Positions 16,036 to 62,198 of a DNA stretch of 64,000 nt are shown here, piece after piece; the first letter of the stretch is position 1; each line of letters starts with the position of its first letter. The DNA is from Schizochytrium sp. TIO01 (lineage: Eukaryota > Sar > Bigyra > Thraustochytrida > Thraustochytriidae), in contig SMSO01000032.1 of assembly GCA_004764695.1 (NCBI GenBank), positions 704,501-768,500 of the forward strand, in the 5' to 3' direction. The position numbers and the translations under genes were made by a program. The notes beneath the pieces are model-generated. The model was not told where the DNA came from. It did not search any database and worked only from the letters and a program-made list of their open reading frames with translations.

Positions 16036-16049
16036 GCAAACCCGAAACT
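16036..16049 (+). promoter_or_regulatory. Upstream element of AQP-A (GCAAACCCGAAACT)
   Basis: It matches 12 of 14 positions of the element GCAAATCCCAAACT found before AQP-B and AQP-C, in the same orientation, and ends 115 bases before the AQP-A ATG. It may be a transcription-factor site or part of the core promoter/leader. No transcription start is known. Confidence 0.5.
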
Positions 16050-16077
16050 CGAAGACCTCGAACCACCAAACCCGAAA

Positions 16078-16096
16078 CAAGCAAGCAAGCAAGCAA
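16078..16096. repeat. (AAGC) array in the AQP-A upstream region
   Basis: About four to five AAGC units between the upstream element and the start codon. AAGC arrays recur at 324-370, near 11,798 and at 43,099-43,142. Confidence 0.9.
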
Positions 16097-16139
16097 GTGA
16101 GCCAAGCTCCAAGCTCCAAGCAGCTGACACTTGTAAAGG

Positions 16140-16151
16140 CAACATTACATC
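16140..16151 (+). promoter_or_regulatory. Start-proximal motif CAACATTACATC of AQP-A
   Basis: The same motif precedes the other two aquaporins, as CAACATTACGTC at 29,231 and CACCATTACTTC at 47,024. Here it lies 13 bases before the ATG. Its conservation suggests a common 5' leader inherited with the genes. Confidence 0.45.
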
Positions 16152-16164
16152 CAAAACAGAAATC

Positions 16165-17187
16165 ATGATTGTCGGTGATGAGGAACTCGGCCAGGGCCAG
16201 CAGGTCCGCAACGGCGGCATGGCCTCCCCTGAGCAGCCCGTCAGCATGAACATGAACGGATTCCAGCACAACGATGAGAAGAGCATTGAGCCCCAGAGCC
16301 TTCAGAAGCGCTACGTCGCCTGGGTCCAGTCTCTTCGCCAGAACCCCACCGAGTCTTCTGATGAGATGCGCACCCCTACCTTCACCCGTGAGCTCATTGC
16401 TGAGTTCATTGGTTGCTTCATCCTCATCCTCTTTGGCTGCGGTATGAACGCGACTGCCACTCTCTTCGCTGCAAACGCTGGTCTTTTCCAGGTATCAGTT
16501 GTTTGGGGCTTCGCTGTTATTCTTGCCGTCTGGACCGTCGGCTCTGTCTCTGGTGCTCACATTAACCCTGCCGTGAGTTTCGCCCTCTGCCTCCTTCGCC
16601 CCGAGGCCTTCCCCGCGTGGAAGCTCGTGCCTTACTGGATTGCTCAACTTGTTGGCTGCTTCTTTGGTGCTGCCATTGTTTACCTCATGATGGGTACCTC
16701 CATCCAGTCTTTTGAGGACGTCAACGGCCTCGTCCGTGGTGAATTGGGAAGCGAATGGTCTGCCTCCATCTTCAGCATGTACTACCCGAACCCTGGTTTC
16801 CGCAACAACGCCGACCTTAACTGGGCTTACGGCCATGTCTCCACTGCTGGTTCCCTCGGCTGCGAGTTCCTTGGTACTGCTATTCTCATGTTCTCCATTC
16901 TTGCAATGAACGATGCCCGCAACCAGATGCGCCTTTCTCCTGGTGCCGCTGCTTGGGGTGTCGGTATGGTTATTATGCTTCTCGTTGCTCTCTTTGGTGC
17001 CATCAACCAGGCTGGCTACAACCCTGCCCGTGACCTTGGTCCCCGTCTCCTTGCTGCCTGCGCTGGCTGGGGCGAGATGGCCTTCCCTGGCCCCAAGGGT
17101 GGCTTCTGGGTCTACACCATCGGCCCTCTCCTCGGTGCCCCCTTTGGAGGTGCCATCCACGACTTTGTGCTCATGCGTGGCCTGTAA
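16165..17187 (+). CDS. Aquaglyceroporin (MIP family), AQP-A
   Basis: This 340-residue membrane channel probably passes glycerol, other small polyols and water. Predicted membrane segments lie at about 77-100, 108-127, 152-175, 230-250, 262-282 and 313-336. The two pore half-helices carry NPA at 134-136 (in SGAHINPAV) and NPA at 286-288, followed by Arg289-Asp290. NPARD is the GlpF-type signature, and Trp114 falls where GlpF has its selectivity-filter Trp. The N-terminal tail (about 75 residues, Gln/Asn/Met-rich) is hydrophilic and cytoplasmic by family topology. The gene is a single uninterrupted frame from ATG, with codons leaning strongly to C/T endings, as in a well-expressed gene. It is the most diverged of the three paralogues here (roughly 40% identical by eye) but shares the pre-TM1 RY...PTES...MR.P block and the exact C-terminal MRGL. 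Actual solute preference cannot be read from sequence. Confidence 0.97.
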   Translation: MIVGDEELGQGQQVRNGGMASPEQPVSMNMNGFQHNDEKSIEPQSLQKRYVAWVQSLRQNPTESSDEMRTPTFTRELIAEFIGCFILILFGCGMNATATLFAANAGLFQVSVVWGFAVILAVWTVGSVSGAHINPAVSFALCLLRPEAFPAWKLVPYWIAQLVGCFFGAAIVYLMMGTSIQSFEDVNGLVRGELGSEWSASIFSMYYPNPGFRNNADLNWAYGHVSTAGSLGCEFLGTAILMFSILAMNDARNQMRLSPGAAAWGVGMVIMLLVALFGAINQAGYNPARDLGPRLLAACAGWGEMAFPGPKGGFWVYTIGPLLGAPFGGAIHDFVLMRGL

Positions 17188-20100
17188 AAAACATCGTATG
17201 CTTTTGCAAAACAACGACAACAACAATACTCATCTACCATCATGTGTCTAGCTGTCCCGATGTTTGTACTACGTTACCCCTCAAATACTCTTCATTTATT
17301 TCTCTTTCTAATCTCGAAACCTTTTTTTATAATATCATCTAGTCCTCAGGTTTGATGATACTCGCACTAAGTTATAAGCCGATTTATCTAATTTTCCAAG
17401 TCTCCATTCTCGTTCCTTCACCCTGCTCGCATGAGACTGTGAATTACCCGGCATCACGCGGAACTTCGATCTTTGAGGGAAATTGTATGACTTCATTTAC
17501 TCACCCGATGTAAGTTTGTGAACAGGTCTCGAGCTCGAAATTGCGCACATAGTTATGTTGTCTGATATACCAATTATAGTATCGAAGTAGTTGTTCAAGT
17601 GTCTGTCATATGACCAAGAAGATACAGCTTCAGCAATGTTTATTTCGTCGAAGCAATCATCACCCTTGACTAACTCTTTGCTGGTTAAATCCCTTGTGTC
17701 AACTTTTTAATTATTTGCCACAGTTCGCATAATGATATTTCTGATACATCAAGCCTGGGGCAAGTATAAAGGTGAAAATGTTCCCAGTATCTAGAACCTA
17801 TCGTCATGGTGCATGGAATTGCAGATTCACGTGCCTTCCTTTTGCGGTTCACATTTTCCTATAAAAGTTATTTATAGAAAACTCTACTCATAATACCTCC
17901 ACTAGTAGTTCTCTTACGATCCTGCTGGCCTTCATATGTTCGGAACTGAGTGTCTCCCAAAAGGGAGCTGGGGCGTACTAACCCACTTAGCATAATATCT
18001 ACTGTACCCGAGGATGAATCTGGATCAGAAAGAGTTCATTGCAACCTATATAACAGGTCGGTCTGACTCAGGTTGGCCCATAATAAGAGTAAGAAAAGGC
18101 AAATTGTCATTCATTTTATCGTCCATTCCAGTATGTTTTGGGCGACATTAGCGGTCGTGCTGGCGAAAGAGAAGGATAGCAAAGGCTCTGGAGGCATTAG
18201 CTTTGTTTCTGTGCAATTTTGGCGTTCAATAGAACCGAGGGGCCCTTTCAGTAACATTCGTTTCACTCGTTTCACTCGTGTCTACGCAGATTATGTTGCT
18301 GATGGCCAGTTTGGCCCCTCATGGCGGGTCTTTCATTATTTTAGTGCAACGATGGAGCCGCTTTAGCTTTGAAAGAGGGTCTATAGCAAGTAGAAACACA
18401 GGCAAAACTGAGGGTGAGATGGAAGGCAAGGGCGCGGTGGAAGAAAATGCAAGAGTGAAGAGGCAAACAAGGCTGAGCCTGAAGCACACGAAGGTTTACT
18501 CGAATTAAGTCCATGGAGATGCTGGGCCGGGGAGCACTTGGCCGAGTGCAGACGTCAAAGGAGGGAAAAGTGAGTCTCTGGCCCAGCTTGTGGGAGATAC
18601 GCAGATAAAGTTGACAAGGAGGTTAAACACACAACCAAGGCCTTGCTCTGGCAGATTCAATTCGAGGAGAGATGGTGTTTTTCTGATTTGAACTCCTAGG
18701 AAAGCGAAAAGCAAGTCTCTTAGTTGCGCTTCACCTGTTCTCCACCCTGCCTGGACACGTCAGAAACAGCAGAAAAAAACAGGAACTCCTATATGAATAT
18801 AGATATCAGGTGATCTTCAACCATCATTGCCGTAGTCAATACGAGCATGGGAAATCAAAAAAATCTAGAGTAAGATTTGCCCTCAAACCATGATTGGCAG
18901 TCCATGACTTCTGCATGAAAAGTAGCACATGATGGCGCTCGTTCAAAACAGTGGCCGAAGGGAGGCCCAGGCTTTACCAAAATCAACTATAGACCTCTAA
19001 TAGGTTGCGGAAACATCTTAGGTAGACTTCGATGCAGTCAATACAGATGAACAGGAAGGAGAATATACTTTCCAGTACTAGATCATCATCAAGTATACCT
19101 CAAACCCCTGTTGCTGAGTTGGTCGCCATAGCTCATCCATACTCCGTGGACATTTTCTTGCTTCTCTCGCACTATTTCAACCTTATTTTCATGAATACAC
19201 GAAAGAATAGAGTCAGCGGAGTTCTTGGATGCTGTCAACCGAGGAAGTACAGGAAGGACCACCGTACGAAGATATGCAAGATTTGGCTTTGGCTTCGACA
19301 TTCGGTGCATCATATTGTTTTTGAAGAAGCTCAAGTTAGCTAAAACCTTTATTTAGCTATGATGTGGAGTTCGGCTACGCGATAGAAAACCTCATCGGCA
19401 CTCTCCCTTCTTTTATCTCCAGTTCTGCAAATTAAACTGTGCTGACTTTTCTTGGGTGGAAAAAAGTACTACCTTCCTGGGCACCTACCAACTTGGATTG
19501 TTTCATTACTGAATCTGTAGCAGGATGAAGCTGGTGTAGGATCGATCTCTTAATTAATGGCAATAAATTCCAACCTTTGGTCTTTGCTATATGCGTACAC
19601 ATGCGCTACCTAGCCACAAAATAGGTCGTAAATGATCAAAACAGCCTCGTTGCATTTCCTGATTCATATTTCGCATGCCTAGTCTGTCGAGTGGAACGAG
19701 ATCCGAGAGCTCTCATCTTCAGATAAATCCGTCCCAGAACGAGGCCATTGGAAGCTATAGCAGTCTTTGCCTTAACATCATTTGTGTAGTTGCGAGTCAG
19801 AAAACAAACGATGAGAACCGTGGCATAAGCAAAGAGCATAAACAAACCAGTATTAAAGCAGTCAACAATCTATGTATGAAGAACTGTAGCGGAATTGTCC
19901 TTTTCAAATTCCCAGACTTTCTTGCAAGGCAGTATCTCTATTTTAAAGCGTCTATTAAATTAGAATGATACTGTCCGAGTCTTCAGCAACATGCGAGACA
20001 TAGCAAGTTCAAATTGTAGACTCCTATGGCTTGTCTGCATACACTTCACTCTACCCACCGTCCCATCATGTATTCGACATTTTAGAAAATCTCTGTCCTA

Positions 20101-23100
20101 GCGCATGGGTTCTTGAGCTTATATATCTGCAAATCAAAATCTAGTTCTTCTTCCTTTTCTAAAACCAATCACCAAGATAGTTCATTCTTGAGCTGATGAT
20201 GAAAAATAATCATTCAAGTCTAGCTTTGCTGCAATAGTCAATGCGAATAATTCATACGTTCTGCTACGACTTTCACCTCTAAAGCTGCTTGCGACTTCAA
20301 TTAACGGAGATTCAAAACAGTGTCTTCCCTCAGGAACGTCAACGAGACTGTTTTTGACAAAGGAACAATTTTTCTTCCCTAAAATTCATAAAGCTTGAAG
20401 AGGTAGCTGCGCAATCCTTTGTGTAAGAGAAAAGCGTAAATTCTGAAATTGTCAAGCTACCTCCAATTTTTGAGTTCCTCCATTATCTTGTCTTCAATGA
20501 AAAATATACATAGCAGCAACTGTGATGGTGGCGAAATTTCATTTGACAATACAAACCTTAGACATGACACTAACCTTAGTAAGAATTGAAACCTCTTAAG
20601 CCAAAGGTAACCTGACCTACTTTTCCAGGACTTGACTGAGGGAATGTTGCGCTGAGTGCGAAAGAGAAGTCTAAATTTGGTCAGCATGCACCTTCTAGAG
20701 ATACTAAGCAGCATGCATTGCATGCATTCATATTTTGCAGGCACGCAAAAGCAAAGTTCTCGCATAATTTGATCGCTCTACTCATTTCTCCTAATGTAGT
20801 ACGTTCAACAGAACAAAACCCAATGAAGCTTGTTCTCGCAACGAGGATCTCGTTTAAAAACAACATTTCGAACGCGGCCAACAAAGAAATCCTCAACGCG
20901 TAGTTAGCTGACAACGCTAACTTGATGCTTGAATTTTTCGCGGAACGTTAAATCCCAAATGACTATGATCCATGTTTTTTTCTTGGATCGCTTGAACTAC
21001 AGCTGAGGTCTGTTCTTCACAGCAACAACAAGAATAATCGAGGGAAGACAAATGAGACACACTCAAATTTGTTTGCGTAGGTCAAAGATGTTTCACTTGA
21101 AGATTTGCCAATTTGAATATGCTAAATTTTGACTAGTCCGCTCCGCTTGAAGTATTTTCTTGGTCTTCAAGCGGTCCACATTTCGTCCATGAGCAATTCA
21201 GAGGTAGTCCAACAGAGGTGAGCAAGATCTTAAACCGCCAAAACCCTGGGCTATACCTTTTCTGGTGACTTCAGCATTTAAATGCTACGATTTAGTGGTT
21301 TACATCTTCACATCCTTAAACGTGGCATGGTAGTTGTTGAACTGACCTTGGGAAGTTTCTTCTTCGCGCAACATTCTGCAGATCACTGCTTGTCAATCAT
21401 CTTCCCCAGGCTAGGCGAATACACAGATGAGAACGGTCAACTCCAGTAGTAAGTCGCCCAGCTCGCTGATTCCGTCCCTGTCAGTCGCTCTCCTCTCATG
21501 CGCTAAGAACTCTCTCGTTCAGTCTTTGCGTTGGAAACAAGAAAAACTGATGGCTTTAGCCGTGTCTAAAACTTCTCATTGAGATCTCGAGGCCGACTTT
21601 TGTGGACAGCCTTGGTCACTCACAAAGGTTTAAGGATGTCTGATCCAATAATCGACGTCAAAAAGTTTTTTCTTTTTCCTTTTACTCTTTTTTTTCCCTC
21701 ATGGGACCTCATTCCAATCTCAACAGCTGGATCTGCTATGTGAATATCTGTTGACTTGTGCGTTTTGCTGCTGTAATGAGAATGCCGTGAGCCACGAAGT
21801 TTGAGCGTGTGGTGAATTCGATCAAGTACTTTCGCTGCGTTTTTGAAAGCACTAATTTACCCCTTCCTTCCTCAAGGACAAAAAAATGCCAATTCACGAA
21901 TCCACAGTGAAGGTCCATGCAAGCAAACGTAGCCACTTTGGTCAATGGCAGTGTTTAATGAGAAAGGTAACAACACAATTGCATCAAGACGAATGCCTAA
22001 AGGTTGTCCAAACAAGACATACTTAAAGTGGCTTGAGAAAGATGACCGCATGTTCCAGAGGTACTGATCAACTCATCGTATCAGAATGTTAAGAAAGAGC
22101 CGGGTATGAAATAATAGAAGATGCATGAGGGTTGTCAAGTTGCAGATTGCTGGTCTCCAAGTGTTACCTAGTCTGTGCGCCTCAATACAAATAAATGTGT
22201 CGTGTTGTAGTATCGTCAGATGCCACATGCAAATTTTGATTTAATTTGGCTCTTCGCAACATCTCTGTGCGCATTTAGTAAAAAAAAAAATCAGACCCTA
22301 ATAAATTGAGATCATGGGCCACAACTTGAGGGGATATTTGAAATCGATCAACCAGACATATTTTTACTTCCTGCCAACCACACGATAAAATAACGAGAAA
22401 ACACCGCCATACGAATCCCGCACCGTTTATGAGTATCAATTCCGAATGACTATCAAGCAACAGAATAAAGTAGATTGCTAGTACCAAGAGAATTTCCACT
22501 TCTTTCTATGGTGCTGCGTTCGTAAGTAGCCACCAAACATTTGATTTCTTGTAACTTGTGGAACCGCAATTTCGAAGGCCCATAGTACATTTTTCCTGCG
22601 CGAAATCAAGGCGGCCTGTCACCAGCGAGTCATCTGCTGCCTAGATGTGACGACAGCCTCCGATGCAGCTTGCCAACGCTTTGTAGCACTTCGCGTTTCG
22701 ATCTGGCAGTTGAATCTGGGTTCTCGACAGCTAAGAGCAACTTGCAATTGAGCGGGCGGGGGATTCTTAGGGTGGAAATTCTTGCTTGACGAGTTTAAAG
22801 GTTGCTTACAACTGCCTGAGGATTGCCCACTCTGACTTTGTCCTTGCGCCCGCAAAATTGAAGGTCCCGACATATTGCACACGTATTTGATGTCATCCTT
22901 GCATAATACTTACTTGGCACACATTTTGCAGGGCCACTGCGATGCACTGCTGTACTCGCTGCGTCATCATCACCAGGCACGCGGAGTCTGTTGACTTGGT
23001 CCAAGACTAAAGACTAAAGTGCGACAAAGGCCCCTTTCTTTGCTTCATCTTCAAGTGAACTTCGATTTTGCTATTTTCGCAACAGCTGGCAGCGGTGGCC

Positions 23101-23640
23101 GCGAGCGAGGACACGGAAAGAGCTTGAGCTCTCACGAATTACAGATCTTGCTACTACGCACACCTCCCTATAACAAGGTTGCATACTTGCAAAAGTCAGG
23201 AATCACGATAGTAAGGAGTGAGCTAAAATAAAATTCACCAACTCGACGAGGTGCATAAAATTTTAATTGGAAGGCGCAACAGCCGACCTCGCGAAAGCAG
23301 ATCCTACTAGCAGACGCTGTTCGTTTAGAAAAAAAAATAAAAAGAATCAGGAAAGAAATTGCATAAAAACGGAAATAACGAGCAGCCGCTTTGGCCTGAT
23401 CGACCGACTGACAGATCGATCACTCACTCATGTGCATTCCTTTCACTTCCTCCTTGTGCGTGCGTGCAAAGGTTTCAAGTTTCTATCCAATCAAGCCAGC
23501 CGGCTTCGCTTTGACAAAACTGCGGCTTCACTCTTTTCCAAAGCTCTTCTCCAACTCGAAGAAGAGGAAGTGCCCAACTTGAACGAAGAACCCGCTCATT
23601 TCCTCAAACGAGGCACCGCGTTCGCCAACCCATCTATAAT
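17188..23640. other. Long segment without supported genes, poor in microsatellites
   Basis: Unlike the left end, this stretch has almost no simple repeats; only short A or T runs occur, near 21,665 and 22,280. It contains scattered short open frames on both strands (19,032-19,343 +, 20,457-20,914 -, 22,275-22,882 -) that match nothing I recognise. Its texture would suit old decayed coding sequence or unannotated non-coding genes. The first few hundred bases are probably the AQP-A 3' region. Confidence 0.5.
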
Positions 23641-24597: not shown

Positions 24598-24621
24598 GAG
24601 AGAACAGAACAGAACAGAACG
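24598..24621. repeat. (AGAAC) pentanucleotide array
   Basis: About five AGAAC units. Related AGAAC words also cluster at 24,210-24,265. Confidence 0.9.
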
Positions 24622-27600: not shown

Positions 27601-27959
27601 CGAAAGAAACGAATGAATGAAAGAATGAATACCAAATGGATCTCGACGGCTCCGTCTTCGCCCACGAGGAGCGTCGAACCATAGACGATGATTGAATCCG
27701 ACACCTTCTGCGCCTATCAAATCCTGAAACATGCAGGTCATACCGACGCTGAAAGGCGCGTTGTCTGATCCATTCTCCAGTTCGTCCTCAATCCATCACG
27801 ATCTCGTCGATGTTTTGATGGCGAAGACATTGCCGATGTTGGTATCGACAGCTCAATTCATTCAAACGCGATCGTGAGAATTAGGGATCACATTAATCGC
27901 GACTGCCACGAGAAGTTTAAAAGAACTTGGGCAGGCGGAACCCAGAGTGCTCAATTACC

Positions 27960-27992: not shown

Positions 27993-29035
27993 GTCAGGCC
28001 GACCAAGCTGTCATGGCAGCAGCAGCAGAGCAACGAGAATGACAGCAAGGCAGCATGAATTGTGTCATACCGCCCTCTCCGGCGAGGCCCACGAGTTAGA
28101 TCGATCTTAGGTCAATGGATAAACCGATCAGTAGCTGCCGAATTGCATCCAAAGCTGCTTCTCGTTAGAAGGCAAGCTTTAAAAGCATTTTAAAAACGTT
28201 TTTTAAAAATTAAATTTTTAAAAAAGATGCCAAGATTTCTGCCACTTGGTAGAAGAACCACGATCTACACACTCACTCGCTCCACAAGGCAGAAGTCCTA
28301 AAGAAAGACCAAGCCAACGAAGGCAGGCTTCCCTAGCTAACTAGGTAGCCACGCACAGCCGCGACAGCTTTCGTCTTCAGCGGCAGCATTGTCTGGCACT
28401 GCTAGCACCACGTCTGCTGCTTGGTCCTGTGCAGCGGCCAGGACAGCGCGATTGACGTGCGGGGGTTATGAAAATGATGTCCTTGCCTTTTTCAGCGAGA
28501 GAGGATTTTCATTCCTTTCTTTGTCTCTTTCGTTATTCAGGAATAAAAGAAACTTTGAAAGGAAAGAACTTACACAAAGAATCCTTTTTAGATTGATGAG
28601 TTGCCAAAAGCTCGGGAAGCACATCCATCATGATGGTCGTGTAATTTGTGCTGGTTTCAATGGCCCTCGTAGCCTAGTGCGAAGACGGTGTCGGCGTCAG
28701 TTAAAGCAATTCCCCCTAGAACGCGCAGTGATGATAGTTATTCTGCTCCTTATGTTGCCGCTCAGGCTGAGACTGTTTCTGTTTCCGTGTGAGCTGCTGC
28801 ACTGGGCAGACAGAACTCCTCTTCAGAGCTACTCATAGGTCATAACAAAAAGGAAGGAAGCCTTCTTTGGGAGCACTCCGTCAGTGGCAGTTCGAGGGAA
28901 TAATGTAAGTACGCTATTCGAAGTCAGTGCGTAAGAGTCTAGGTGCCTACGTAGAAAATGCTACTCAGCACAAAACTGACGAGAGCAAAGCTACGGCGAA
29001 TGGCGTATCCTAGAAGTGCTCGCCCACTGACCAAA

Positions 29036-29049
29036 GCAAATCCAGAACT
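29036..29049 (+). promoter_or_regulatory. Distal upstream element of AQP-B (GCAAATCCAGAACT)
   Basis: Shares CCAAAGCAAATCC with the proximal AQP-C element, and GCAAATCC.GAACTCC with the distal AQP-C element. It ends 227 bases before the AQP-B ATG; the matching AQP-C copy ends 215 bases before its own. An ancestral duplicated promoter is the simplest reading. Confidence 0.5.
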
Positions 29050-29158
29050 CCTCTGCAGACATCCAAGTCTGTCTAGGGGTTGACACACGCAAAGCATCAA
29101 ATATAACCGCAGCTTGTGACTTGAGTTGGGGAGTGCCCCGCGCAAGCACCAGCAAGCA

Positions 29159-29172
29159 GCAAATCCCAAACT
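29159..29172 (+). promoter_or_regulatory. Proximal upstream element of AQP-B (GCAAATCCCAAACT)
   Basis: Identical over all 14 bases to the element at 46,926-46,939 before AQP-C, although the surrounding sequence has diverged. It ends 104 bases before the ATG. Confidence 0.6.
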
Positions 29173-29276
29173 GCCACGGAGCCCGGAGCTACCGTGAATA
29201 AATCCCTTTCTCTCACTACAGAGCAGTACTCAACATTACGTCATTTCAACAGGAGCCGGGAGCATCAAAGCTCAAC

Positions 29277-30260
29277 ATGTTGGTCTACGACGCCGAAGAA
29301 GCGCAGGGTGAGAACATCCAGCAGTCCATCGTCAAGCGGGACGATGATATGGACCCCGAGGATCTGCAAACGCCGATGAAGAGGTACTCTGATTTCATTT
29401 TTCGCCTTCGTGGTGACCCCACGGAGTCTATGGATGATATGCGCGAACCTTCGCTTTTCCGCCAAGTCGTTGCTGAGGCAGTAGGCACTTTTATCATGGT
29501 ACTCTTTGGTCTCAGTATCAACGCCGCCACTGTGATCTGCGGTGCTCACTCAGGCCTCCTTGCAGCAGCCATTGTCTGGGGCATCGCAGTCATTTTCGGA
29601 CTTGTTTCTAGCATTAGTATTTCCGGAGGTCACGTCAACCCTTGCGTCTCTCTTTCGTTTGCTCTCTTGCGTCCTCATGAGTTCCCAGCCTACAAGCTCC
29701 TGCCGTACTGCGCAGGTCAGCTCTTTGGTTCTTTCATTGCTGGATGGGTTGTCTACATTGTGTACAGCCCGGCCATTGTTGCTTACGAAACCCTCAACAA
29801 CATTACCCGTGGTCAGCCTGGCTCTGAAATTACTGCTTCTGCTTTCCACGGCTACCCTCCCAACCCAGCCTTCGTCGGCGACGCTACAGGCTGGACCTGG
29901 AACACGTACTCAAGTACTGGAGCTATGGGAACCGAGGCCCTCAGCTGTGGTATTATGATGTTCATGGTTTTTGCTTTCACTGATCCTCGTAACCACCTGC
30001 AGCTCGGCGGTGGTGCCATTGCCTTTGGTATTGGCCTCAGTGTCACTGCTATTGTGGCTTGCTTCGGCGCTCTTGATGGAACCACCATCAACCCTGCTCG
30101 CGACTTTGGTCCCCGTATCGTGACCTGCCTCATGGGATGGTGGGACATCGCTATCCCGGGTCCTCCCAACGCGTCCATGTGGGGCTACATCATTGGACCT
30201 CTCATTGGTGCTCCCATTGGTGGCGCCATTTATGACCTCGTCGTCATGCGTGGACTGTAA
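29277..30260 (+). CDS. Aquaglyceroporin-like channel with NPC first motif, AQP-B
   Basis: A 327-residue six-helix MIP channel. The second half-helix has the GlpF-type NPARD at 272-276, and Trp101 matches the GlpF selectivity-filter Trp. The first half-helix reads SGGHVNPCV, with NPC at 121-123 in place of NPA. In animals an NPC first motif is known from the divergent AQP11 type; here the rest of the protein is an ordinary GlpF-like channel, so the change looks like local substitution in a paralogue. The core is about three quarters identical to AQP-C by my alignment, including the MLVYDAEE start, the RLRGDPTE.MDDMREPSL block before TM1 and the C-terminal MRGL. Codons are less C-biased than in AQP-C, which suggests lower expression or weaker selection. 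The frame is intact, with no stop or frameshift, so I call it a gene and not a pseudogene. Effect on pore selectivity is inference. Confidence 0.96.
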   Translation: MLVYDAEEAQGENIQQSIVKRDDDMDPEDLQTPMKRYSDFIFRLRGDPTESMDDMREPSLFRQVVAEAVGTFIMVLFGLSINAATVICGAHSGLLAAAIVWGIAVIFGLVSSISISGGHVNPCVSLSFALLRPHEFPAYKLLPYCAGQLFGSFIAGWVVYIVYSPAIVAYETLNNITRGQPGSEITASAFHGYPPNPAFVGDATGWTWNTYSSTGAMGTEALSCGIMMFMVFAFTDPRNHLQLGGGAIAFGIGLSVTAIVACFGALDGTTINPARDFGPRIVTCLMGWWDIAIPGPPNASMWGYIIGPLIGAPIGGAIYDLVVMRGL

Positions 30261-45561: not shown

Positions 45562-45600
45562 TCTTCTTCTTCTTCTTCTTCTTCTTCTTCTTCTTCTTCT
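45562..45600. repeat. (TTC) triplet array
   Basis: About thirteen perfect TTC triplets. Confidence 0.95.
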
Positions 45601-46833
45601 GTGCTTCTTCTTACGCATCCATCCTGCGCAAATAAATGAGGTTTCAAATAAAAAGTAATATTTGTTTCTACTAAATGAATTAAATAAGTAAACGCTTTGT
45701 CTACGCAAGGCCCGAATGGTCTTACTCGCAAAGAGTCGTCGTCTTTCAGCGTGTAGAAGTATTCTGCATCCGATTTGCATATGAAAGACTTTTTCTTTCA
45801 AGAAAAACTAATATTCAACTTTTTTTCTTTCCTTAACCTTCTACTTCCTTTCTTTCGTATAGGACGATGCTCTTTCAAGACGACTACTATCAGTGTCACC
45901 GCTACTACTTTCTGACTCATCGAAGCGAGTTTTGAGCTCTTCAATTCATATTAAGTTTTTTATTTTAAAATACAATTTCAAAAAAACAAAAAAACTAAGG
46001 GAAAGACAGACAGGCGGAGGGAGAGAGGGCTTCCTCCAAAAGAGGCCATGCTGAAGAAAGAAGAGGGAACGCCTTCCTTCTCCTGCTCTGCCTCTCTCTA
46101 CACAGACTCAGCTCTGCGTCGCTCTCTCTGGCCGCCCTCCGCCTCGGTTGCGGCCCACCCCCCACCTCCTCCCCTTGTCAGCAAGAGAGCCACCGTCTGA
46201 GCCCTCGACGGCCGTTCGCTCAATCAAACCCTCCGTGCGGCCGCTATCCCTCCGAGTTAGCTTGCTCTCTCTTTGGTTTGAGCGACGAGTCTGAATAAAA
46301 AGTAGGTAGGCACACCGTTGATCCTACATTCATTGCATTTTATTGTAAGTTAGGAAAAAGATGATCAATAAATAAATAAAAATTAATATTTATACATGAA
46401 TATTAAGGAATAGAAGCAGTGAAGGTGGAAGGCATCGCACGCGTTATTGCAAACGAATGGAGGGTGTGGAGGAAGAAAATGGTGGAAAAGTAAACACATG
46501 TCTGCTCCTACAGCGTGGTGATTAGGAAACTTGAAGCATCTCTCGCTGATGTCCTCTTGCTTCTTTGTTATTTTTGGTTTTGTTTACAAGTTTGTTTAGT
46601 GTAACATTGTCTTTTTTTTTCTTCTTTCTTTCTTAGAGTGGATAGAGAGGAATGCTTACTCTTTTTTTTTTTTCTTTTTTTTAATTTTATAATTAATGTA
46701 ATAATAAAATAAGAAGAAGCCAAAAAACAAAAAATCGAATTAAGAGAGGAAGATCCCATGAGGCTGAACGCGCAGAGAAGAGGAATCAATTGACGGTGCA
46801 AGCGTATCTTGGAGTTGCTGTGCACGGCTTCAA

Positions 46834-46847
46834 GCAAATCCGGAACT
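46834..46847 (+). promoter_or_regulatory. Distal upstream element of AQP-C (GCAAATCCGGAACT)
   Basis: Counterpart of the AQP-B distal element (one base different over 14), ending 215 bases before the AQP-C ATG. Both are followed within about 25 bases by CATCCAAG. Confidence 0.5.
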
Positions 46848-46925
46848 CCCAAAGCATCCAAGCGAATCTCGAGCACTCGACTTCAGCATTAGCAAGAAGT
46901 TGCCCAGCGCGAGAAACCAACCAAA

Positions 46926-46939
46926 GCAAATCCCAAACT
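46926..46939 (+). promoter_or_regulatory. Proximal upstream element of AQP-C (GCAAATCCCAAACT)
   Basis: Identical to the 14-base element before AQP-B. It is preceded by CCAAA, as in the AQP-B distal copy, and ends 123 bases before the ATG. Confidence 0.6.
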
Positions 46940-46947
46940 CAGGAATC

Positions 46948-47015: not shown

Positions 47016-47062
47016 TTCTAGTCACCATTACTTCCTTTCAACAAGAACCTACTTCAACCAAC

Positions 47063-48043
47063 ATGCTTGTCTACGATGCCGAAGAGGGAGTCACTGACTC
47101 CTCGCAGTCGATTCGCAAGGATGTCGAGCGCAACCAGCCTGAAGAGGCCATGGGACCCTCCAAGCGCTACGCCAACTTCATCTTCCGCCTCCGTGGCGAC
47201 CCCACCGAGACTATGGACGATATGCGTGAGCCTTCCCTTCTCCAACAGGTGATGGCTGAGACAGCAGGTACCTGCCTCTTTGTAATCTTCGGTCTTGGCG
47301 TCAACGCGTCAACTATTGCCGCTGGCGCCCACTCCGGTCTCCTCGCTGCAGCTATCATTTGGGGTATCGCTGTCGGCTTTGGTATTATCTCGTGCATCAG
47401 TGTGTCTGGTGGCCACATCAACCCGGCCGCGTCCCTCACCTTCGCGCTCCTTCGCCCGCACGAATTCCCCTTCTACAAGCTCATCCCCTACTGCATTGGT
47501 CAGCTCATCGGTGCCATCATCGGTGCTCTTGTTGTGTATGCGCTCTACAACCCTGCAATTGTCGCGTTCGAGACGCTCAACGGCATCACTCGTGGTGAAG
47601 AGGGCTCTGAGATTACGGCCTCCATCTTCCACGGATTCCCCCCCAACCCTGGCTTCGTCGGCGACTCCACCGGCTGGACCTGGAACACCTACTCCAGTGC
47701 TGGTGCCATGGGTGTCGAGGCTGTCTGCACTGGCCTCATGATGTTCATCGTCTTCGCCATCACTGACTCCCGCAACCACCTCCAGCTCGGCGGTGGCACC
47801 ATCGCCTTCGGTATTGGCATGAGTGTCACTTGCATTGTCGCCTGCTTCGCTGCCCTCGACGGCACTTCTCTCAACCCTGCTCGTGACCTTGGTCCTCGCC
47901 TCATGACCTGCGCTCTTGGTTGGGGCGAGATCTCCATCCCGGGCCCCCCGAACACCTCCATGTGGGGCTACATCATCGGACCCCTCATCGGCGGCCCCAT
48001 CGGCGGCGCCTTCTACGATCTCTTCGTCATGCGTGGCCTTTAA
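47063..48043 (+). CDS. Aquaglyceroporin (MIP family), AQP-C
   Basis: A 326-residue six-helix channel, the closest paralogue of AQP-B. NPA is at 120-122 (SGGHINPAAS) and NPARD at 271-275; Trp100 sits at the GlpF selectivity-filter position, so glycerol and small-solute transport is the likely role. The N-terminal tail is acidic. The block RLRGDPTETMDDMREPSL precedes TM1, and the protein ends MRGL like the other two. Codons are very strongly C-ending, more so than in AQP-B, which points to high expression. That same bias opens a 278-codon antisense frame, which is not a gene. The start is the ATG in CCAACATG, and no upstream in-frame ATG is needed. The gene is transcribed toward the FYVE gene, whose stop lies 1.9 kb downstream on the other strand. 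Confidence 0.97.
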   Translation: MLVYDAEEGVTDSSQSIRKDVERNQPEEAMGPSKRYANFIFRLRGDPTETMDDMREPSLLQQVMAETAGTCLFVIFGLGVNASTIAAGAHSGLLAAAIIWGIAVGFGIISCISVSGGHINPAASLTFALLRPHEFPFYKLIPYCIGQLIGAIIGALVVYALYNPAIVAFETLNGITRGEEGSEITASIFHGFPPNPGFVGDSTGWTWNTYSSAGAMGVEAVCTGLMMFIVFAITDSRNHLQLGGGTIAFGIGMSVTCIVACFAALDGTSLNPARDLGPRLMTCALGWGEISIPGPPNTSMWGYIIGPLIGGPIGGAFYDLFVMRGL

Positions 48044-54028: not shown

Positions 54029-56350
54029 TTATGAGATTACACAGCATGCCTCGCCACTCCCTGTGCCTCCGCTTTTCGTGAAAATGCCTTCAAGCATATC
54101 TAATTCTGCAAGATCAAGCTCTTCGTCAAGCTGAACATGAACACCGAGGGGGGTTTCCACCTCAAGTTCAGGAGAGTCGAGGATAGTTTTTTGCTTAACA
54201 AAATCAGGCCATCCTTCAAACACACGGACTACAGATTGGTTACCAAAATGAAGTGCAATTTCGTAAGGGGTGAAAGGACAATCACTGACTGGCTTTACAA
54301 AAGCACCATAATCAAGCAAACGCTGCAGCGCAGCCCCGGCATCGTAACGCGCACAGTAATGCATCGCGGTCCATCCACTATCATCTGCCTTATCCATTCG
54401 CACACCTCGCTCAACAAGAGAAGAGATGTGTTCTGGGTCGTCAGAGAGTACAGCACAGTGCAACGCTGTTAAGCCTTCAGTACCCAAGGCCCTCACGTCT
54501 GCCTTTTTAGAAATGAGATACTCCACAAGATCAGTATGCCCAGGACGCATCACTGCATAAAATAACGGGGTCCAGCCACGACCATCACGTACGTTAACAT
54601 CGAGCTGGCGGTCGAGAAGTTCAGTCACAAGCTCCGGATCAGCGTATCGGCAAGCCATGTGAAGGGCAGAAATCTTATATTCTTCACTTGCAACCCGGAC
54701 GTTCGCCTGTGCATTGATAAGCATTTGCACAATCTCATGATCATTGTTTCTCAAGGCATAGTGCAAAGGTGTAAAGCCGAAGTGATCTGCGTCGTCCACA
54801 GCGGCGCCAGCCTCTAGAAGTAGGAATGTACACTGTTGACTTCCTCGCTTGACCGCAAGAGATAGAGCAGTCTCACCAGTATTACCTGCAGGATTGTCAA
54901 TCTCTTCACCAAACGTACGAAGATCGCGTGCCAAGCGTTTATCGTCGCGGTTCCAAGCTGCTACGTGTAAACGAGTCCAACCAATCTCCATATTAGGGCG
55001 CCAAGTCACTAAGCCTGCAGGACTGTGGTATAACTCCAAGGTCTCCTTTGATGGTTCTTCATAAATGCGAAAGTTGTTACGCGCCACTCGTGCTCCAGAT
55101 GCAGTAACCTTCAGCAAGCGCTGGATCTGTTGCAAGTGAGCATCCCGAAGGGAGTGAACATCATTGTACACTTGAGAATTTGACTTGTGACGTCTATCCT
55201 CATCGTCGAGCTTCTTTCCACGAAACGATTGCGAAAAGAACCTGGAAATTCTCTGTACACCGGAAACTCGCGAGGTACGTGTAGAAGAGGATGCCAAGGA
55301 AAGCTTTTTTGAAGAAGCAATAGGAAAATCATGTGTGCTCACCGAGCGCATTGAGGGTGTTCCACTTCTTGCAGACATGCGATTTGAAGAAAGGCGTTCT
55401 GTAGGGAGAGCGGCCCCGGTTCGACCTGTTGACTCTCGCAGAACTGATGAATGAGGGGACTTTGCAGCGACATGATCCTCACTTTGATCATCATCATCAG
55501 AGAGATCTTCAGTATCAACCTCTTCCAAATGTTTGACACTCGCACGTTGCTCGTCTGTCCGCTTGATACTTAAACGTTGCTCCTCGCGACTTTCGCTGCG
55601 TGGGATTCCCTTTGAAAACATATCTGAAACAGACCTTAGTGATGCGTTACTGTCAAAAGCCTCACTCGCACGACTCGCAAGTGATTCACGTAACCCTGAA
55701 CCTTTTTGCGTAGGAGTGTTTTCTTTTGCCTCTGTCGCAGCAGCACTGTTTTGCTCAACTTCCTCGTGATGCTCCTCAATCACAACTGGCGCAATTGCAG
55801 CTTGATCATTAGATTTGGACTGACGCTTGCTGCTGCCCCTTTTGCTTGCCAGAGAGAACTTGCGGCTTTGTGATGCTGACCCAACTGAGTTTCGAAGCAC
55901 GGACTCCTGGTGTGCATGTTCTAAATCATCTTCAAGGTCTACATCCTCAAAGCTATGTGCTGGCTCATCGCGTTGGTTTCGTGATACGTGACGCGCCGGG
56001 AAGCTTTCGGCCTCTGGTCCTGGCCCATGTGGCACGAACGATGACACAGTGCGCTCTCTTTGAGTACCAGGTTTGCCGCCATCTGCCCCACGATTCAAGT
56101 ATGAGAACAACGGTGCTTCGCTGGGGCCCTTTTTGGCTGGGTTGGTGGCTGATCTAAGGGCCTCATCGCTTTCAAGGTATGAAAACATTGGCCCCTCCTG
56201 CTCCAAAAATGCAGTGTGCTCGGCTTTTGGCAAGCCGCAGTGGACACATCTTTCTAAATACTTAAATGTTGGGCTTGGCTCGTACCCAGGGCACTTATCC
56301 AGAGCATTTTGCTTTTGCCTCCTCCTACGCGCTGCGCCTTTCGAGCTCAT
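54029..56350 (-). CDS. Ankyrin-repeat protein with C-terminal CAAX box
   Basis: The protein has 773 residues from the ATG at 56,350; the frame also runs upstream to a TTG, which I do not use. Eight ankyrin repeats of about 33-35 residues begin near 457, 491, 524, 559, 592, 626, 659 and 692, most with a recognisable TALH- or TPLH-like core, a protein-protein interaction surface. The protein ends CCVIS; CVIS fits a CAAX box with Ser at X, the type favoured by farnesyltransferase, and the preceding Cys could be palmitoylated, so membrane attachment is likely. The N-terminus has a basic run (RRRRQKQ), a CVHC...H motif (35-44) that could bind zinc, and three spaced copies of P-x-F-x-Y-L-E/N (27-33, 54-60, 80-86). 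Residues about 100-410 are Ser/Glu-rich and probably disordered. No enzymatic domain is visible. I do not recognise an orthologue. Confidence 0.92.
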   Translation of the reverse strand: MSSKGAARRRRQKQNALDKCPGYEPSPTFKYLERCVHCGLPKAEHTAFLEQEGPMFSYLESDEALRSATNPAKKGPSEAPLFSYLNRGADGGKPGTQRERTVSSFVPHGPGPEAESFPARHVSRNQRDEPAHSFEDVDLEDDLEHAHQESVLRNSVGSASQSRKFSLASKRGSSKRQSKSNDQAAIAPVVIEEHHEEVEQNSAAATEAKENTPTQKGSGLRESLASRASEAFDSNASLRSVSDMFSKGIPRSESREEQRLSIKRTDEQRASVKHLEEVDTEDLSDDDDQSEDHVAAKSPHSSVLRESTGRTGAALPTERLSSNRMSARSGTPSMRSVSTHDFPIASSKKLSLASSSTRTSRVSGVQRISRFFSQSFRGKKLDDEDRRHKSNSQVYNDVHSLRDAHLQQIQRLLKVTASGARVARNNFRIYEEPSKETLELYHSPAGLVTWRPNMEIGWTRLHVAAWNRDDKRLARDLRTFGEEIDNPAGNTGETALSLAVKRGSQQCTFLLLEAGAAVDDADHFGFTPLHYALRNNDHEIVQMLINAQANVRVASEEYKISALHMACRYADPELVTELLDRQLDVNVRDGRGWTPLFYAVMRPGHTDLVEYLISKKADVRALGTEGLTALHCAVLSDDPEHISSLVERGVRMDKADDSGWTAMHYCARYDAGAALQRLLDYGAFVKPVSDCPFTPYEIALHFGNQSVVRVFEGWPDFVKQKTILDSPELEVETPLGVHVQLDEELDLAELDMLEGIFTKSGGTGSGEACCVIS

Positions 56351-56485
56351 TTTCTCCGTTCGACTATTTCGCAGCTCGTCCAACTATAGTCCAAGTACCT
56401 TCGTGTTGCGCTTCGATTGGCGTACAACAGCTGTGATCTCAATGCTAAAATCAACGCAGCAAGAGCGCCTAATTAGTAGCAAGCA

Positions 56486-56493
56486 GGATTTGC
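56486..56493 (-). promoter_or_regulatory. Upstream element of the ankyrin gene (GCAAATCC)
   Basis: On the - strand this reads GCTGCAAATCCTGC. It is the same 8-mer, in the same gene orientation, as before AQP-B and AQP-C, with 135 bases between it and the ATG. Confidence 0.5.
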
Positions 56494-56644
56494 AGCGCAC
56501 GTGCACCGCCTCGGCACGTGCCGATCTCCGCGGCGGCTTCGCGCTGAGCGGGTGGTCTCGAGGCTCGCTTAAGCTCGCGTTATCTCTATAGGAGCACGCT
56601 CGCCAAGCTCTTGCACTGCCGGCGCTCGAGCTCGCTTCTTTGAT

Positions 56645-56695
56645 TGTCTGTCTGCGGGTCCTGTCTGTCTGCCTGCCTGTCTGCGAGTCTGTCTA
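56645..56695. repeat. (GTCT)/(GCCT) tetranucleotide array
   Basis: Interleaved GTCT and GCCT units. Confidence 0.9.
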
Positions 56696-57106
56696 AGATG
56701 CTGTGATCATCGAAAATAGTTAGTAAATGAATGAGTGAATGAGTGAAAAAAGTTATCCCTCCCACTAATGACTGTTACGATTAATTCCTAAAGAGTGCGC
56801 GAACTTGCGGAAAGAAGTGCCTTTTCTTCTCACTTTAGGTTCGCAGGATTATTACTTAGTGGGCTTTTGTGCTAGAGATTCTTGTAAGCATTTGGTGTCC
56901 TATTGCATGGGTCCCTAATGGTTTTCCTAGCACTGGGGCAAATTGAAAGAGAGGATCGATTGAGCAAAGTTTTGTTTTTTTGTTTTTTAAAGACATGCGA
57001 CTATTTGTCTCCATTGCCTTTCTCGTTGATGTCCCATTCCCATCTCAGTCACGGTTGCAAAGCTCTTGCGTTTTGCGAGTCCAAGCAGAAGGTGCGGCCC
57101 GTAGAG

Positions 57107-57163
57107 CTCGCTCTCTCTCTCTCGCTCGCTCGCTCGCTCGCTCGCTCGCTTGCTGGCTGGCTG
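57107..57163. repeat. (CT) array passing into (GCTC) and (GCTG) units
   Basis: About six CT units, then about eight GCTC units, then GCTG variants. Confidence 0.95.
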
Positions 57164-60100
57164 ATTAAACCCCCCTGTGGCAGAGCTGAGTCGAGAGCTC
57201 ACTAAACCGATAAACCTGAACTTTAAAAGTACACGACTACCGTGACTTATACCCTCGTTTGATTCTAAATGCTTGAAGCAGTAGCACACAAGTTTTCATG
57301 ATCTACAGGCAAGGACTTCTCTCCCCGAATACTACACGTTGCTCAAAGCAGCAACGATTGGCGTTGAACCCCCCCCTACTGCGGCAATGGCCCGCGCTGG
57401 TTTGGTATGAATACCTATGGTGTACTTTCTTTTGACAAGCTTGTTTGTTTATTCGATCAATTGCTCATGTCTTTTTTGTAGGAAAGCTCGTCGATCAAGT
57501 TCGTAATTCGGAAGGAATCTATCCCTGCACAGCAGCCCCAAAGACTGACAGGCGAGGCCTTCAACACTATAGCCTTGCACAAGTGTAAGCGCCCGGTGCA
57601 ACAGCAAGCAACAGCGTGGAGCGAAGGAGACGACGCTAGCAAGAGCGAGTGCTTCGATGGCTTATTACTTCTTGCTTGCCTTTCCCTCGCTCACTCGCAC
57701 ACAACTGAAGTTTCGATTGAATTACCGTGACTTTCTATCATTGAGCACACTACTGTGCCGGTAGACAGTCCTAGCTTAAAAGACTTCCCTCGGGCTGTAA
57801 TTTTTTTTCTTCAACCAAAGCCCTGCTGGCAACTAATTTCCAAATAAGTACTACTGCTAACAACATCAAAGACAAAACTGAAGACGGAAAGAGGCGAAAA
57901 GAGCGACGTTCTGTTCAATAAGTAAGTAGGTACCTGCTTTCCTATCTATCACCAGTAAGTAGGTAGGAAGGTAGTTAGTTAGAAGAACTGGAGCTAATAC
58001 AACTACATTTTTACTTGAGTTTTTGCCCAAATGAAGGGTTTCTGGGAATATACCCCCTGGCTAGTTGGAGTCGAGGCACTGCAGCAGTTGCGCGCGCTGG
58101 TCGGCTGGGCGCTCTGCAACGATCATCATCCCGCCAGTGGGGTCCAAAAGCAAGAGGTCGATAATGGCGGTGGTGAAGAAGTGAAGCAATTTGCTATAAT
58201 ATGGATGAAGTGGGATGGTCAGCACGTGCATGGAAGCTAGAGACGTATAACGAAATCCCTACTCGATCAGAAACAAGCCATTTGTATAAGCGAATTTTGA
58301 GACGAAAGGGGGCACCCTAGGATAACTTTCCGATAAGCTCTGAATTGCGTTGTGCAAAAGCTGCGTAACCAAAATGACCAAAATGGCAGAAAAGGAAAAG
58401 ACAAACTATTTATGGAGCTCGCCACAGCTGTGCAACTTGTGCAGGATAATACGCAGAGGTGATACACTATTGGTAGCCTCCGCGAGCAAGTCTTTCTGGA
58501 GCTGAGTTAGAATGCCAATTCGGGCCCTTTGCGTGGGGCCTTGCACATCATCCTTTTCTTCTTCTTCCTAACATCCTAACATGGTAGTAGTAGTGTTAAA
58601 TGGGAGTGTCAGTAACACTACGAGTGGAGGAACGAATGCAAAATCGTGACCATTATCACGGCTTCAAGGACTTGTGTCCTTCCGCCGGGTCGCGTGCCGG
58701 CACCTGGGTTTCTTAAGAAGGATGTGCCGAGCTTCAATCTCACTTCGCGTTCGTCGCTGCAGATTAAGGATCTCTGACACAACACTGCCGTAGCTTAAAG
58801 CGAGCTGAGCGCTGCTCATACGATCTGCTCACACACTGTAAGAATCACCCAACCAGCAGATTGGCAGATTGGTTGGTTAATGGAATAAAATTAAGATAAT
58901 TTTAGCTTTTGAACATAGCATTGCCAACAAAAGTAATGCAAGGATTTTAGTTTACATTCTGCTGGATAGCATTGCAGGAAAACAGAGATCTGATTCCATT
59001 GCTGGTCATTATTTAAAGAACGCGAGAGGCCAAACGTGGAATTCCCTTGGCTACCTCAAGAGGGGATCAACTTCAAGTATAGCCAAAATATTGAGCGTGT
59101 GCCAACTTTGCATAGTACGCACTGAAGAATTCATTCCTGCGTGCACATCATAAGAGGAAACGATAAAATAGTTGTAAATGACAGACTAAAGTTTAAAAAT
59201 TGCTAGCACAAACTTGAAGCTACACGGCCCTGAAAAGAGAAGCTGCAGCATATCAATAGTGTCCGGGTGTTTGGGCATGCGTTCGACAAATTCAAGTTGG
59301 GATTCAGGCCTAATAAATAGGTATTATGCTAATTACCTCTAGAGAAGCGGGGTGTGTATTTAGAGATTCAAATAAACGGTGTGCACAGTAAAATTTCAAG
59401 CTGCGGTGCCACCATTCTCGTAAGAACACTGGAAATTTTCTACGCATCAATGATTGCTCTATTATTTTAACTTGAAGCAGCTTCTAGTTTTACAAATCAA
59501 GGTCGTTTGACGCTAGAAGCTAGCAGGATTTTCAGTTTGATCCTTCAATAGTATCTCCTTGAAAACGAAGGATCGTGGGGTCTTGGAAAAGGACCAATGA
59601 AACGTATTTGTACTAAAAATATCAAGCTTTAAATCTACTAGCGAATTACTTTCACATAAAGTATACAGGTCTCCTAAAAGGTAAGAGATCTTTGAACAGC
59701 CACAACACATGATGTGAATGTCTTTGTGAGCTTAGTCTGACCAAGCCTGTACACTTTCTATTCATTCGCTCCTTTACATGCAAATACGTCTCTGAAAGAA
59801 TAGAATGGGCCCATGCTTCAACAGGGCTGAAATTACTTCATAAAAAGTGAGACTTTAGCAAGAAATTAACAGCGAGGTCAGTCCAAATTGCTCTGTTTGC
59901 GAAAAGGATTCCAAGGGAGATTATTATTTATAATTTGAAATGATCATGATGAAAGATGCGTATCTTCATCCTTTATCATGGATGATATTGGAAAAGTTTA
60001 TCACTCATAGGACTGGTTTGATACTTGCAAAACATAGATTTTCTATGAAGGTAGGTTCGATGAATAAGTCATAGTACTAAATTTCTAGAATGACAAAACA

Positions 60101-60710
60101 AGGTGCAGAGCTTGATTTCATTAATTTGTTATTATTCTTTTTTATCTACAACAGCCGATGTTCGAAGTAGTATGTATATGCAAATGTCCCAAATTTTGTT
60201 CTTTTCCTCAGTGACAATGAGAAAAAACTGAATAATTTCTAAATGTTTAGGTTTCTTTTTGAAAATGTAAACGATATGTTTTGCTTTGTAGTTGAGTAGA
60301 ATGGAGGGCCATGTTTTACAAAGATTCATGGTCACGAAATCCTATCCTCAATGAATGAAGATACAACAACATGGAAGGTCCAAACTTTGGAAAAGAAAAT
60401 CCAGGATCAAGTTTTTACTTTTATAGCTTTTGCGATCCACTGCATAACACGTTTCATGAAAGCGTAAAGCGAACTCCGTGTTGAAGAAAAACCGCTTGCC
60501 TTATGAGTGATCGAAGTGAGCAGCTTAAACTGCATTCCAAAAGATGTAATTTACACATCCTCAATGTGAAGATCAAGCTGAGATGAACGTAAGCGGTTTC
60601 TAGAAACGTTTTATGTTTTTAGATTATGGTACTATTTTCGCCTAAGCAACAGACATATATTTTGTTTTCGCAACTGCCATACAATATGATGACATTTGTA
60701 TTGGTGAAGT

Positions 60711-62115
60711 TTACGATGAGTGCTTCTTCTTTGATGCAGCATGAGCCTCGTCCTCAACCTTCTGAGCAATGTCTCCATAGAATCGAGTCACCATCTTCAA
60801 CGCCTCTTCGCGAGTTTCCGGGAGCACGGAGCAAAGTTCGCGCTGCTGCTCACCTTCTACTTCAAAGGTGAAGTTAAACGAATTTGAAACATGAGTGTTG
60901 GTGGCTTCAGGGTTCACCACAGACGCAAGGACCTCCACATGGATAGATGGATTTTTATGAAGGCTCTTTGACGTAAAGAGCACACAAGATTCAAAGTGCA
61001 CAAGGTCACCAACATCCACAGGTGTACGGAAAACAACTTCGTCTACCTCACGAAATCGCGGGACTGACCCTCCGAAGACATAGGCTGTGGCATATGCAAG
61101 CTCATAGGCACGGCGCACGAGAAATCCACCAAAAATACGCCCAGCAGTGTTTCTTTGCTGAGGCTGCATGATGAAAATGTTGGAGTGCCTTGTCTGCGAG
61201 ACTGGGATGCGGTTTTTCATGGCCACTGAAGGCATGAACAAACGTGGCTTGGAATCAGCATAAAGCTCCTCCGCAGCTTGCTCAATGGTAATAACAGCAG
61301 TCTCGTCGCTCGCCTCACTGGTCAGAATACCCTCCAGATGTGACCGGTACAGCTTGGCATCCTTATGCTGCGTACGGAGAAGTTTGCGGTATTCTGCGCG
61401 ACGACGGCCCATCCTCAAAGGCCTCCTTCTCCTCTTCAGTTACCGGCTGCAGAGGGTTGATCCGTCGGGCGCGACCACTGTTCTTGTCACGAGCAACAAA
61501 AGTGAAGAGGGCCTCAAGCCACGGTTCGTCAGACCAGTTTGACCTGGCCTGCATTTGAATCTCCATTGATGAAGAACCTACCCAAGAGACCTTTCCGGAG
61601 AGTGTGATATCATGCTCAACCTTGGCTCGGTGAGCCATAGTGATGCGATCAATTGAAGCTGTCACAAGCATGACGGAGTCAAAGTTCGCATGTGTTGCCG
61701 AACAGTGACGAAACGCAATGTTGCCTGCAAGGGCATCCAAATCTTCTACAATGCGTCCAACGCGAACATTTCCCCAAGGGTTTAAGTACTTGTCGCGTAA
61801 AGAAGAATCCTTAGTGAAATTGTATGCGACTTCGGTTGCCATGGGTTCTTGTGCCACGAGTTCTTCAAGTTCCTCCGGTTTACGCAAAGACTTCTCACGT
61901 TTCACCTCAGATCTGCGTTGTCTCTTCGCAGCATCTCGCAGTTCCCACAGAAGGTTCACAATCGGCGTTTTGTGTTGTCCAGCTGCACGCGGGTTTTCGC
62001 CATCGTCTTCATTCACTTCATCAGCAGGGGGTAGGGTCTTGATGCCGCGGAAGCAGCCAACTGCCTGAGGCCGCAGCCTCACGCGCCCTTGTCTAAACAA
62101 AGCGGTAGCGAGCAT
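60711..62115 (-). CDS. Mitochondrial acyl-CoA thioesterase, ACOT9-like, with one frameshift
   Basis: This is a double-hotdog thioesterase that would hydrolyse acyl-CoA to fatty acid and CoA in mitochondria. The first frame starts at ATG 62,115 with an Arg-rich, acid-free leader (MLATALFRQGRVRLRPQ), a good mitochondrial presequence. The first hotdog (about residues 110-225) carries RVGRIVEDLDALAGNIAFRH, the ACOT9-type signature. After EAFEDG this frame is lost and runs to an early stop at 61,363. The reading resumes in a neighbouring frame as RRRAEYRKLL and continues through the second hotdog, with NTAGRIFGGFLVRRAYELA, to the TAA at 60,711. Dropping one base from the GGG at 61,408-61,410 on the - strand joins the two frames without loss, so this is either a one-base error in the sequence or a real mutation. 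Both halves are otherwise well conserved, which favours error or a very recent lesion. The nearest upstream gene on the same strand is not in the window. Confidence 0.88.
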
Positions 62116-62191
62116 TCTTGATCCACGCGCACTGGTCTGGGGAGAAACGGTATTGCCCAACCAGCCTTCTTGGCTCTCCAGAGTTGATTCT

Positions 62192-62198
62192 GATTTGC
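62192..62198 (-). promoter_or_regulatory. Upstream element of the thioesterase gene (GCAAATC)
   Basis: On the - strand this reads AAGCAAATCAGAATC, similar to the distal AQP-B element. Seven of the eight core bases match, and 76 bases separate it from the ATG. Confidence 0.4.

Follow-up and report, generated by a model that had tools for sequence, protein, structure and literature searches.

The genome of the thraustochytrid Schizochytrium sp. TIO01 contains a 16-mer, AGCAAAYCCNRAACTC, which is probably an orientation-dependent initiator-region core-promoter element located at the transcription start of a minority class of promoters. The starting point is a stretch of 64 kb of this genome (contig SMSO01000032.1, positions 704,501 to 768,500), called the window here, in which a preliminary description had pointed to the eight letters GCAAATCC, or variants of them, in front of five of six genes. 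These eight letters belong to a longer signal with a fixed direction, which in the window is confined to three aquaporin genes, A, B, and C. The sequence flanking the aquaporin copies continues alike, while that of the copies before an ankyrin gene and a thioesterase-like gene does not. A core common to the aquaporin copies, CAAAYCCNRAAC, is found six times in the window (at 16037, 16067, 29037, 29160, 46835, and 46927), always on the plus strand and twice per aquaporin promoter. In the window 0.20 copies are expected, and six were reached in none of 100 shuffles.

Consensus and genome-wide excess

Genome-wide counts were made on the 37 contigs (64.06 Mb) of this one genome, with the reversed pattern as control, and are given with both strands as plus+minus. 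The pattern GCAAAYCCNRAACTC occurs 108 times (61+47) as compared to two occurrences (1+1) of its reversed pattern. The T form of the element, GCAAATCCNRAAC, yielded 143 sites (73+70) versus 14 (9+5), and the C form, GCAAACCCNRAAC, 251 (134+117) versus 78 (45+33). Taken together the strict T and C forms amount to 394 copies, 389 of them outside the window, versus 92 for the reversed patterns, and 1753 sites differ from AGCAAATCCCAAACTC at three positions or fewer, versus 497. The second half of the element, NRAAC, follows GCAAATCC in 143 places, versus about 25 predicted by a trinucleotide chain for this number of 8-mers. In 25 T-form promoters selected by the placement analysis described below, an A stands before the G in 88%, the N is C, A, or G, and AAC is followed by T in 48% and then by C in 56%. 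The Y of the consensus reflects the C form, to which the copies in the unselected loci L014, L015, and L021 belong.

The eight letters alone behave differently. All positions of GCAAATCC in the preliminary description (29036+, 29159+, 46834+, 46926+, and 56486-) were confirmed, no further place in the window holds the exact 8-mer, and the variant GCAAACCC at 16036 and the 7-mer GCAAATC at 62192- were also found again. The five copies of GCAAATCC are not above chance for the window, however (mean 3.00; five or more in 17 of 100 shuffles), and the 7-mer is at chance level, as had been stated, with 14 copies versus 15.4 expected, the one at 62192- being among the 14. To the 16-mer consensus the ankyrin copy TGCAAATCCTGCTTGC has five mismatches and the thioesterase copy AGCAAATCAGAATCAA four. 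When the best match was sought in random 250-nucleotide stretches of a genome sample with the real copies included, at most five mismatches were seen in 862 of 2000 draws and at most four in 199 of 2000. Because random stretches also reach these levels, three of the six genes, namely the aquaporins, were counted as carriers instead of five; the ankyrin and thioesterase copies are probably chance matches lacking the second half of the element. Genome-wide, GCAAATCC occurs 2722 times and its reversed word 646 times, a difference which was not used as evidence: there is a CG in the reversed word, and scaling up the dinucleotide expectation of the window (3.0 per 64 kb) gives a number close to 2722. 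Literature matches to the literal 8-mer, among the matches listed, look unrelated. With a background level in the window and no bias in 18 sampled copies, GCAAATCC itself was discarded as the element.

Table 1. Copies of the element, aquaporin reading frames, and related matches in the window.
Feature	Positions	Strand	Remarks
Element copy 1, aquaporin A	16035..16050	+	AGCAAACCCGAAACTC, 0 mismatches to AGCAAAYCCNRAACTC
Element copy 2, aquaporin A	16065..16080	+	ACCAAACCCGAAACAA, 3 mismatches; CAAACCCGAAAC core at 16067-16078
Aquaporin A reading frame	16165..17187	+	MIP family, 340 aa
Element copy 1, aquaporin B	29035..29050	+	AGCAAATCCAGAACTC
Element copy 2, aquaporin B	29158..29173	+	AGCAAATCCCAAACTG
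Aquaporin B reading frame	29277..30260	+	MIP family, 327 aa
Element copy 1, aquaporin C	46833..46848	+	AGCAAATCCGGAACTC
Element copy 2, aquaporin C	46925..46940	+	AGCAAATCCCAAACTC, exact T-form consensus
Aquaporin C reading frame	47063..48043	+	MIP family, 326 aa
GCAAATCC before ankyrin gene	56486..56493	-	judged a chance match, without NRAAC
GCAAATC before thioesterase-like gene	62192..62198	-	judged a chance match

The three aquaporin genes have another block in common ahead of their ATGs, CATTAC(N)TC (in 16140-16164, 29230-29276, and 47020-47062), which is followed by TTTCAACA in aquaporins B and C.

Placement, direction, and the ATG boundary

In place of gene models, reading frames of at least 100 codons were taken as genes when they lay on the same strand and started 20-260 nucleotides (nt) downstream of the element. 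From the 96 GCAAATCCNRAAC sites outside the window among the matches listed (100 of 143), 39 were sampled at regular steps, every fifth place over many contigs, in sets of 19 and 20. Such a frame follows 25 of the 39 (10/19 and 15/20). A mirror-image test, confined to the 20 T-form sites with symmetric fetched regions, gave 15 sites with a frame in forward direction and two with a mirrored one, one site having both; the fixed orientation relative to the gene which characterizes the Initiator class was thus found (15/20 forward versus 2/20 mirrored). As control 20 plain 8-mer sites were picked by hand among the 100 matches listed, on contigs C2 and C3 only, and 18 remained after regions L080 and L083 had been left out. 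Two of these were forward and one mirrored, and nine lay inside frames only. The difference in forward placement, 15/20 for the T form versus 2/18 for the plain 8-mer, has a Fisher P of 9e-5 in samples unmatched by contig. A bias of the 8-mer near gene starts, on which the preliminary description had staked its proposal, is therefore not seen for the plain copies and belongs to the longer form.

Similar results were obtained with DNA chosen without regard to the motif, 11 loci of 10 kb, one of them half masked. Nine sites with at most two mismatches were found there, seven of them before a same-strand frame at 63-239 nt; two of the seven are overlapping sites of a single promoter, and the one in L019 is at the same time inside another frame. 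When the scan started from the genes instead, in the window and the loci, seven of 37 upstream regions (400 nt at most) contained the element with at most three mismatches in sense orientation, and none in antisense. Outside the window the element was present at 4 of the 26 unselected frames (95% interval 4-35%). The distance from element to ATG, which the preliminary description had found to be similar in the window, is not so in general: it ranges from 27 to 259 nt, with a median of 107, in the 25 promoters from elsewhere in the genome.

A further property concerns ATG triplets. When equal lengths were compared in the 25 promoters, 29 ATG were counted before the element and one between element and start codon, the corresponding numbers for CAT being 30 and 22. 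Up to a third of this ATG bias is possibly built in, because the start had been taken as the first in-frame ATG, and the count was therefore repeated genome-wide without any choice of frame. Around the 108 GCAAAYCCNRAACTC sites 41 ATG occur at 30-59 nt upstream and 32 at 0-29 nt upstream (eight with gaps of 0-9 nt, 14 of 10-19, and ten of 20-29), versus four at 0-29 nt downstream and 25 at 60-89 nt downstream, where true start codons are expected. ATG thus keeps to about its background level until the element is reached and is almost missing directly behind it, a boundary which, like the enrichment, the orientation, and the placement before reading frames, was observed directly in the sequence. 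In aquaporins A, B, and C the ATG nearest to copy 1 on its upstream side lies at 15720, 29000, and 46758, respectively, and there is no other between it and the start codon. As leaders avoid ATG the RNA seems to begin at the element, and the place where the triplets vanish suggests a transcription start within about 10 nt of it.

Function of the element and its carrier genes

Either a dedicated factor or part of the initiation machinery would read the element on the DNA, and this reading would fix start site and direction. If the element sets the start, its distance to the ATG equals the length of the 5' untranslated region and would therefore be variable, corresponding to the 27-259 nt observed. 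The two sense copies per aquaporin gene would perhaps provide alternative or reinforcing start positions. We infer the start at the element, its action as DNA, and the binding partner from the features of the sequence described above. A core-promoter or initiator-region role in gene orientation had already been proposed in the preliminary description; this is retained for the 16-mer AGCAAAYCCNRAACTC genome-wide but not for GCAAATCC. The accompanying argument that the genes are unrelated in function does not hold for the ankyrin and thioesterase genes, judged non-carriers; the unrelated carriers are found elsewhere in the genome. Going further, and only tentatively, Labyrinthulomycetes might possess a previously undescribed initiator class, AGCAAAYCCNRAACTC, with a dedicated or diverged recognition factor; it would mark a class of genes for nutrient uptake and metabolism and would often be present in two sense copies.

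The carriers are functionally diverse, as is typical of a general core-promoter element. Seventeen of the 25 carrier frames have a Pfam match, to many families, one of these matches (L046) being below the curated cut-off only. They include histone H2A, glutamine synthetase, a globin/FAD-binding protein, methionine sulphoxide reductase, an ankyrin protein, and sugar, ammonium, and sulphate transporters. Eight of the 25 are transporter-like, namely four Sugar_tr proteins, a sulphate, an ammonium, a BT1, and a cation-efflux protein, the last below its cut-off. For the background 23 of the 26 unselected frames were scanned, 19 of them without element, and as two of these 19 are transporters the excess among carriers is not significant (P 0.15). 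At least four of nine scored Sugar_tr genes (46 candidates) have a strict copy 204-345 nt before the profile match, among the matches listed (100 of 143 GCAAATCCNRAAC and 100 of 251 GCAAACCCNRAAC sites), and some of these genes are tandem paralogues. In two sugar-transporter clusters, C4:284379-351249 and C13:3154834-3178173, a strict copy is located upstream of some genes only, among the matches listed, so that the clusters lend themselves to comparing promoters that have the element with others that do not. On contig C4 a match to a PfaA-like polyunsaturated fatty acid synthase (TIGR02813, over the family cut-off) was also observed at 591651-617209 on the plus strand, where it is divided between two open stretches (1031 and 2172 codons); nearby, a 2044-codon frame on the minus strand has another, partial match. 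A synthase of this type is indicative of a thraustochytrid.

The main rival to an initiator is an RNA element, i.e., a motif at the extreme 5' end of a class of mRNAs which controls their translation or stability, comparable to the 5' terminal oligopyrimidine tracts of vertebrates. Sense orientation, the putative placement at the 5' end, and second copies in a leader free of ATG fit this explanation equally well, and the many nutrient-transport and metabolic genes among the carriers agree with it; the double copies in the aquaporins and in other promoters suggest alternative starts, and an RNA element fits them as well. Genome-wide, however, the drop in ATG coincides with the element, as expected of a sequence that sets the start, whereas a pure RNA element need not sit exactly there, and we consider it unlikely. 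Slightly less probable still, the element would not be a general core element but would bind the transcription factor of a regulon for nutrient uptake, the site of which lies at the start by chance. The transporter-like frames together with the aquaporins and the copies upstream of Sugar_tr genes speak for such a regulon, but the excess of transporters is not significant, paralogues are not independent, carriers such as histone H2A, methionine sulphoxide reductase, and the ankyrin protein do not fit, and ordinary factor sites are seldom strictly oriented. Finally, the three neighbouring aquaporin promoters might have their copies by shared ancestry, with chance 8-mers at the two other genes and nothing more. 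Chance probably does account for the ankyrin and thioesterase copies, and the promoters of aquaporins B and C are partly alignable with each other. Yet the A promoter aligns poorly with those of B and C, whose proteins are 43% identical to A, and the element is kept; moreover 389 strict copies lie outside the window, and those of the T form that were sampled stand in gene orientation ahead of genes that are unrelated. As a full explanation shared ancestry plus chance is refuted by the placement test and by the 108 versus 2 sites of GCAAAYCCNRAACTC, and it is very improbable.

Several observations weigh against an initiator-region core-promoter element at the transcription start. No qualifying frame is found downstream of 14 of the 39 sampled T-form sites, some of which are inside frames; some of the 14 may precede short first exons. 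Second copies with at most three mismatches, present in 5 of the 25 promoters plus the three aquaporins, are unusual for a single-site initiator. The proximity of upstream ATG differs between the two data sets, with none in the last 20 nt in the 25 promoters versus 22 of 32 within gaps of 0-19 nt genome-wide. Of the 25 promoters, 6 have the Mammalian-type Initiator consensus YYANWYY within the element and 19 do not. In addition the placement sampling covers the T form, and the whole comparison a single thraustochytrid genome.

Comparison with known core-promoter systems

Thraustochytrids include industrial producers of docosahexaenoic acid (PMC10840233). Among the papers listed in literature searches, judged by titles and the beginnings of abstracts, no description of a thraustochytrid core-promoter element was found. 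A paper on chromatin accessibility by ATAC-seq names the motif classes BPC, MYB, and OBP, and the passages found in it contain no sequence resembling the element (PMC10840233); peaks of N6-methyladenine (6mA) in Aurantiochytrium are mentioned in another (PMC12695648). A short, strict, and oriented start element would offer a handle on transcription starts, 5'-end annotation, and promoter choice, and would make the divergence of initiator sequences among eukaryotes directly testable with 5'-end RNA data.

The nearest described kind, going by the passages of Roy et al. 2013 (PMC3599244) considered here, is the oomycete set of INR (YCAYTYY), FPR (MWTTTNC), and DPEP (SAASMMS), in which INR and FPR form a block of 16 nt present in about 13% of genes and DPEP is a downstream element of Peronosporales. 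The INR+FPR block resembles the thraustochytrid element in being from a stramenopile, about 16 nt long, near the transcription start (probably so for the thraustochytrid element), sense-biased, and restricted to a minority of genes. In sequence, however, INR, FPR, and DPEP are not matched on either strand by any of the four versions of the element that were compared. The element does not contain the INR+FPR block (GCTCATTYYNCAWTTT or YCAYTYY plus MWTTTNC), the strict block is at chance in this genome (0+2 versus 1+0 for the reversed pattern), a count which led to the rejection of a Phytophthora-like organism as its source, and INR is rarer on the sense than on the other strand of the 25 promoters (4 versus 15). 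With DPEP the element shares an A/C-rich composition and the sense bias. In the 25 promoters the sense strand has 44 copies of SAASMMS versus 10 on the other, but the element itself has no match to it, and downstream, where DPEP would be expected about 25 nt from the start, 19 matches versus 12.9 are within the range of shuffles. Upstream of the element SAASMMS exceeds shuffles on the sense strand (24 versus a mean of 10.2 and a largest value of 21), mostly at -80 to -40 in L025-L062, and possibly represents a second, upstream component of the promoter or else simple repeats rich in A/C and A/G. The TATA box motif TATAWA is equally frequent on both strands (8 versus 8). Within 90 nt upstream of the element, 8 of the 25 promoters (L025-L062) have TTTAT versus 2.4 expected, perhaps as a weak AT-rich box.

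To the Mammalian-type Initiator, the consensus of which is quoted in PMC3599244, the element would be alike in its way of working if the start lies inside it, but it is longer and A/C-rich. YYANWYY, which was seen in two of five aquaporin copies tested, is no defining part of the element since so few of the 25 promoters have it there. Judged from its sequence features the element would work like an initiator, yet it is no member of the INR, FPR, DPEP, or YYANWYY classes.

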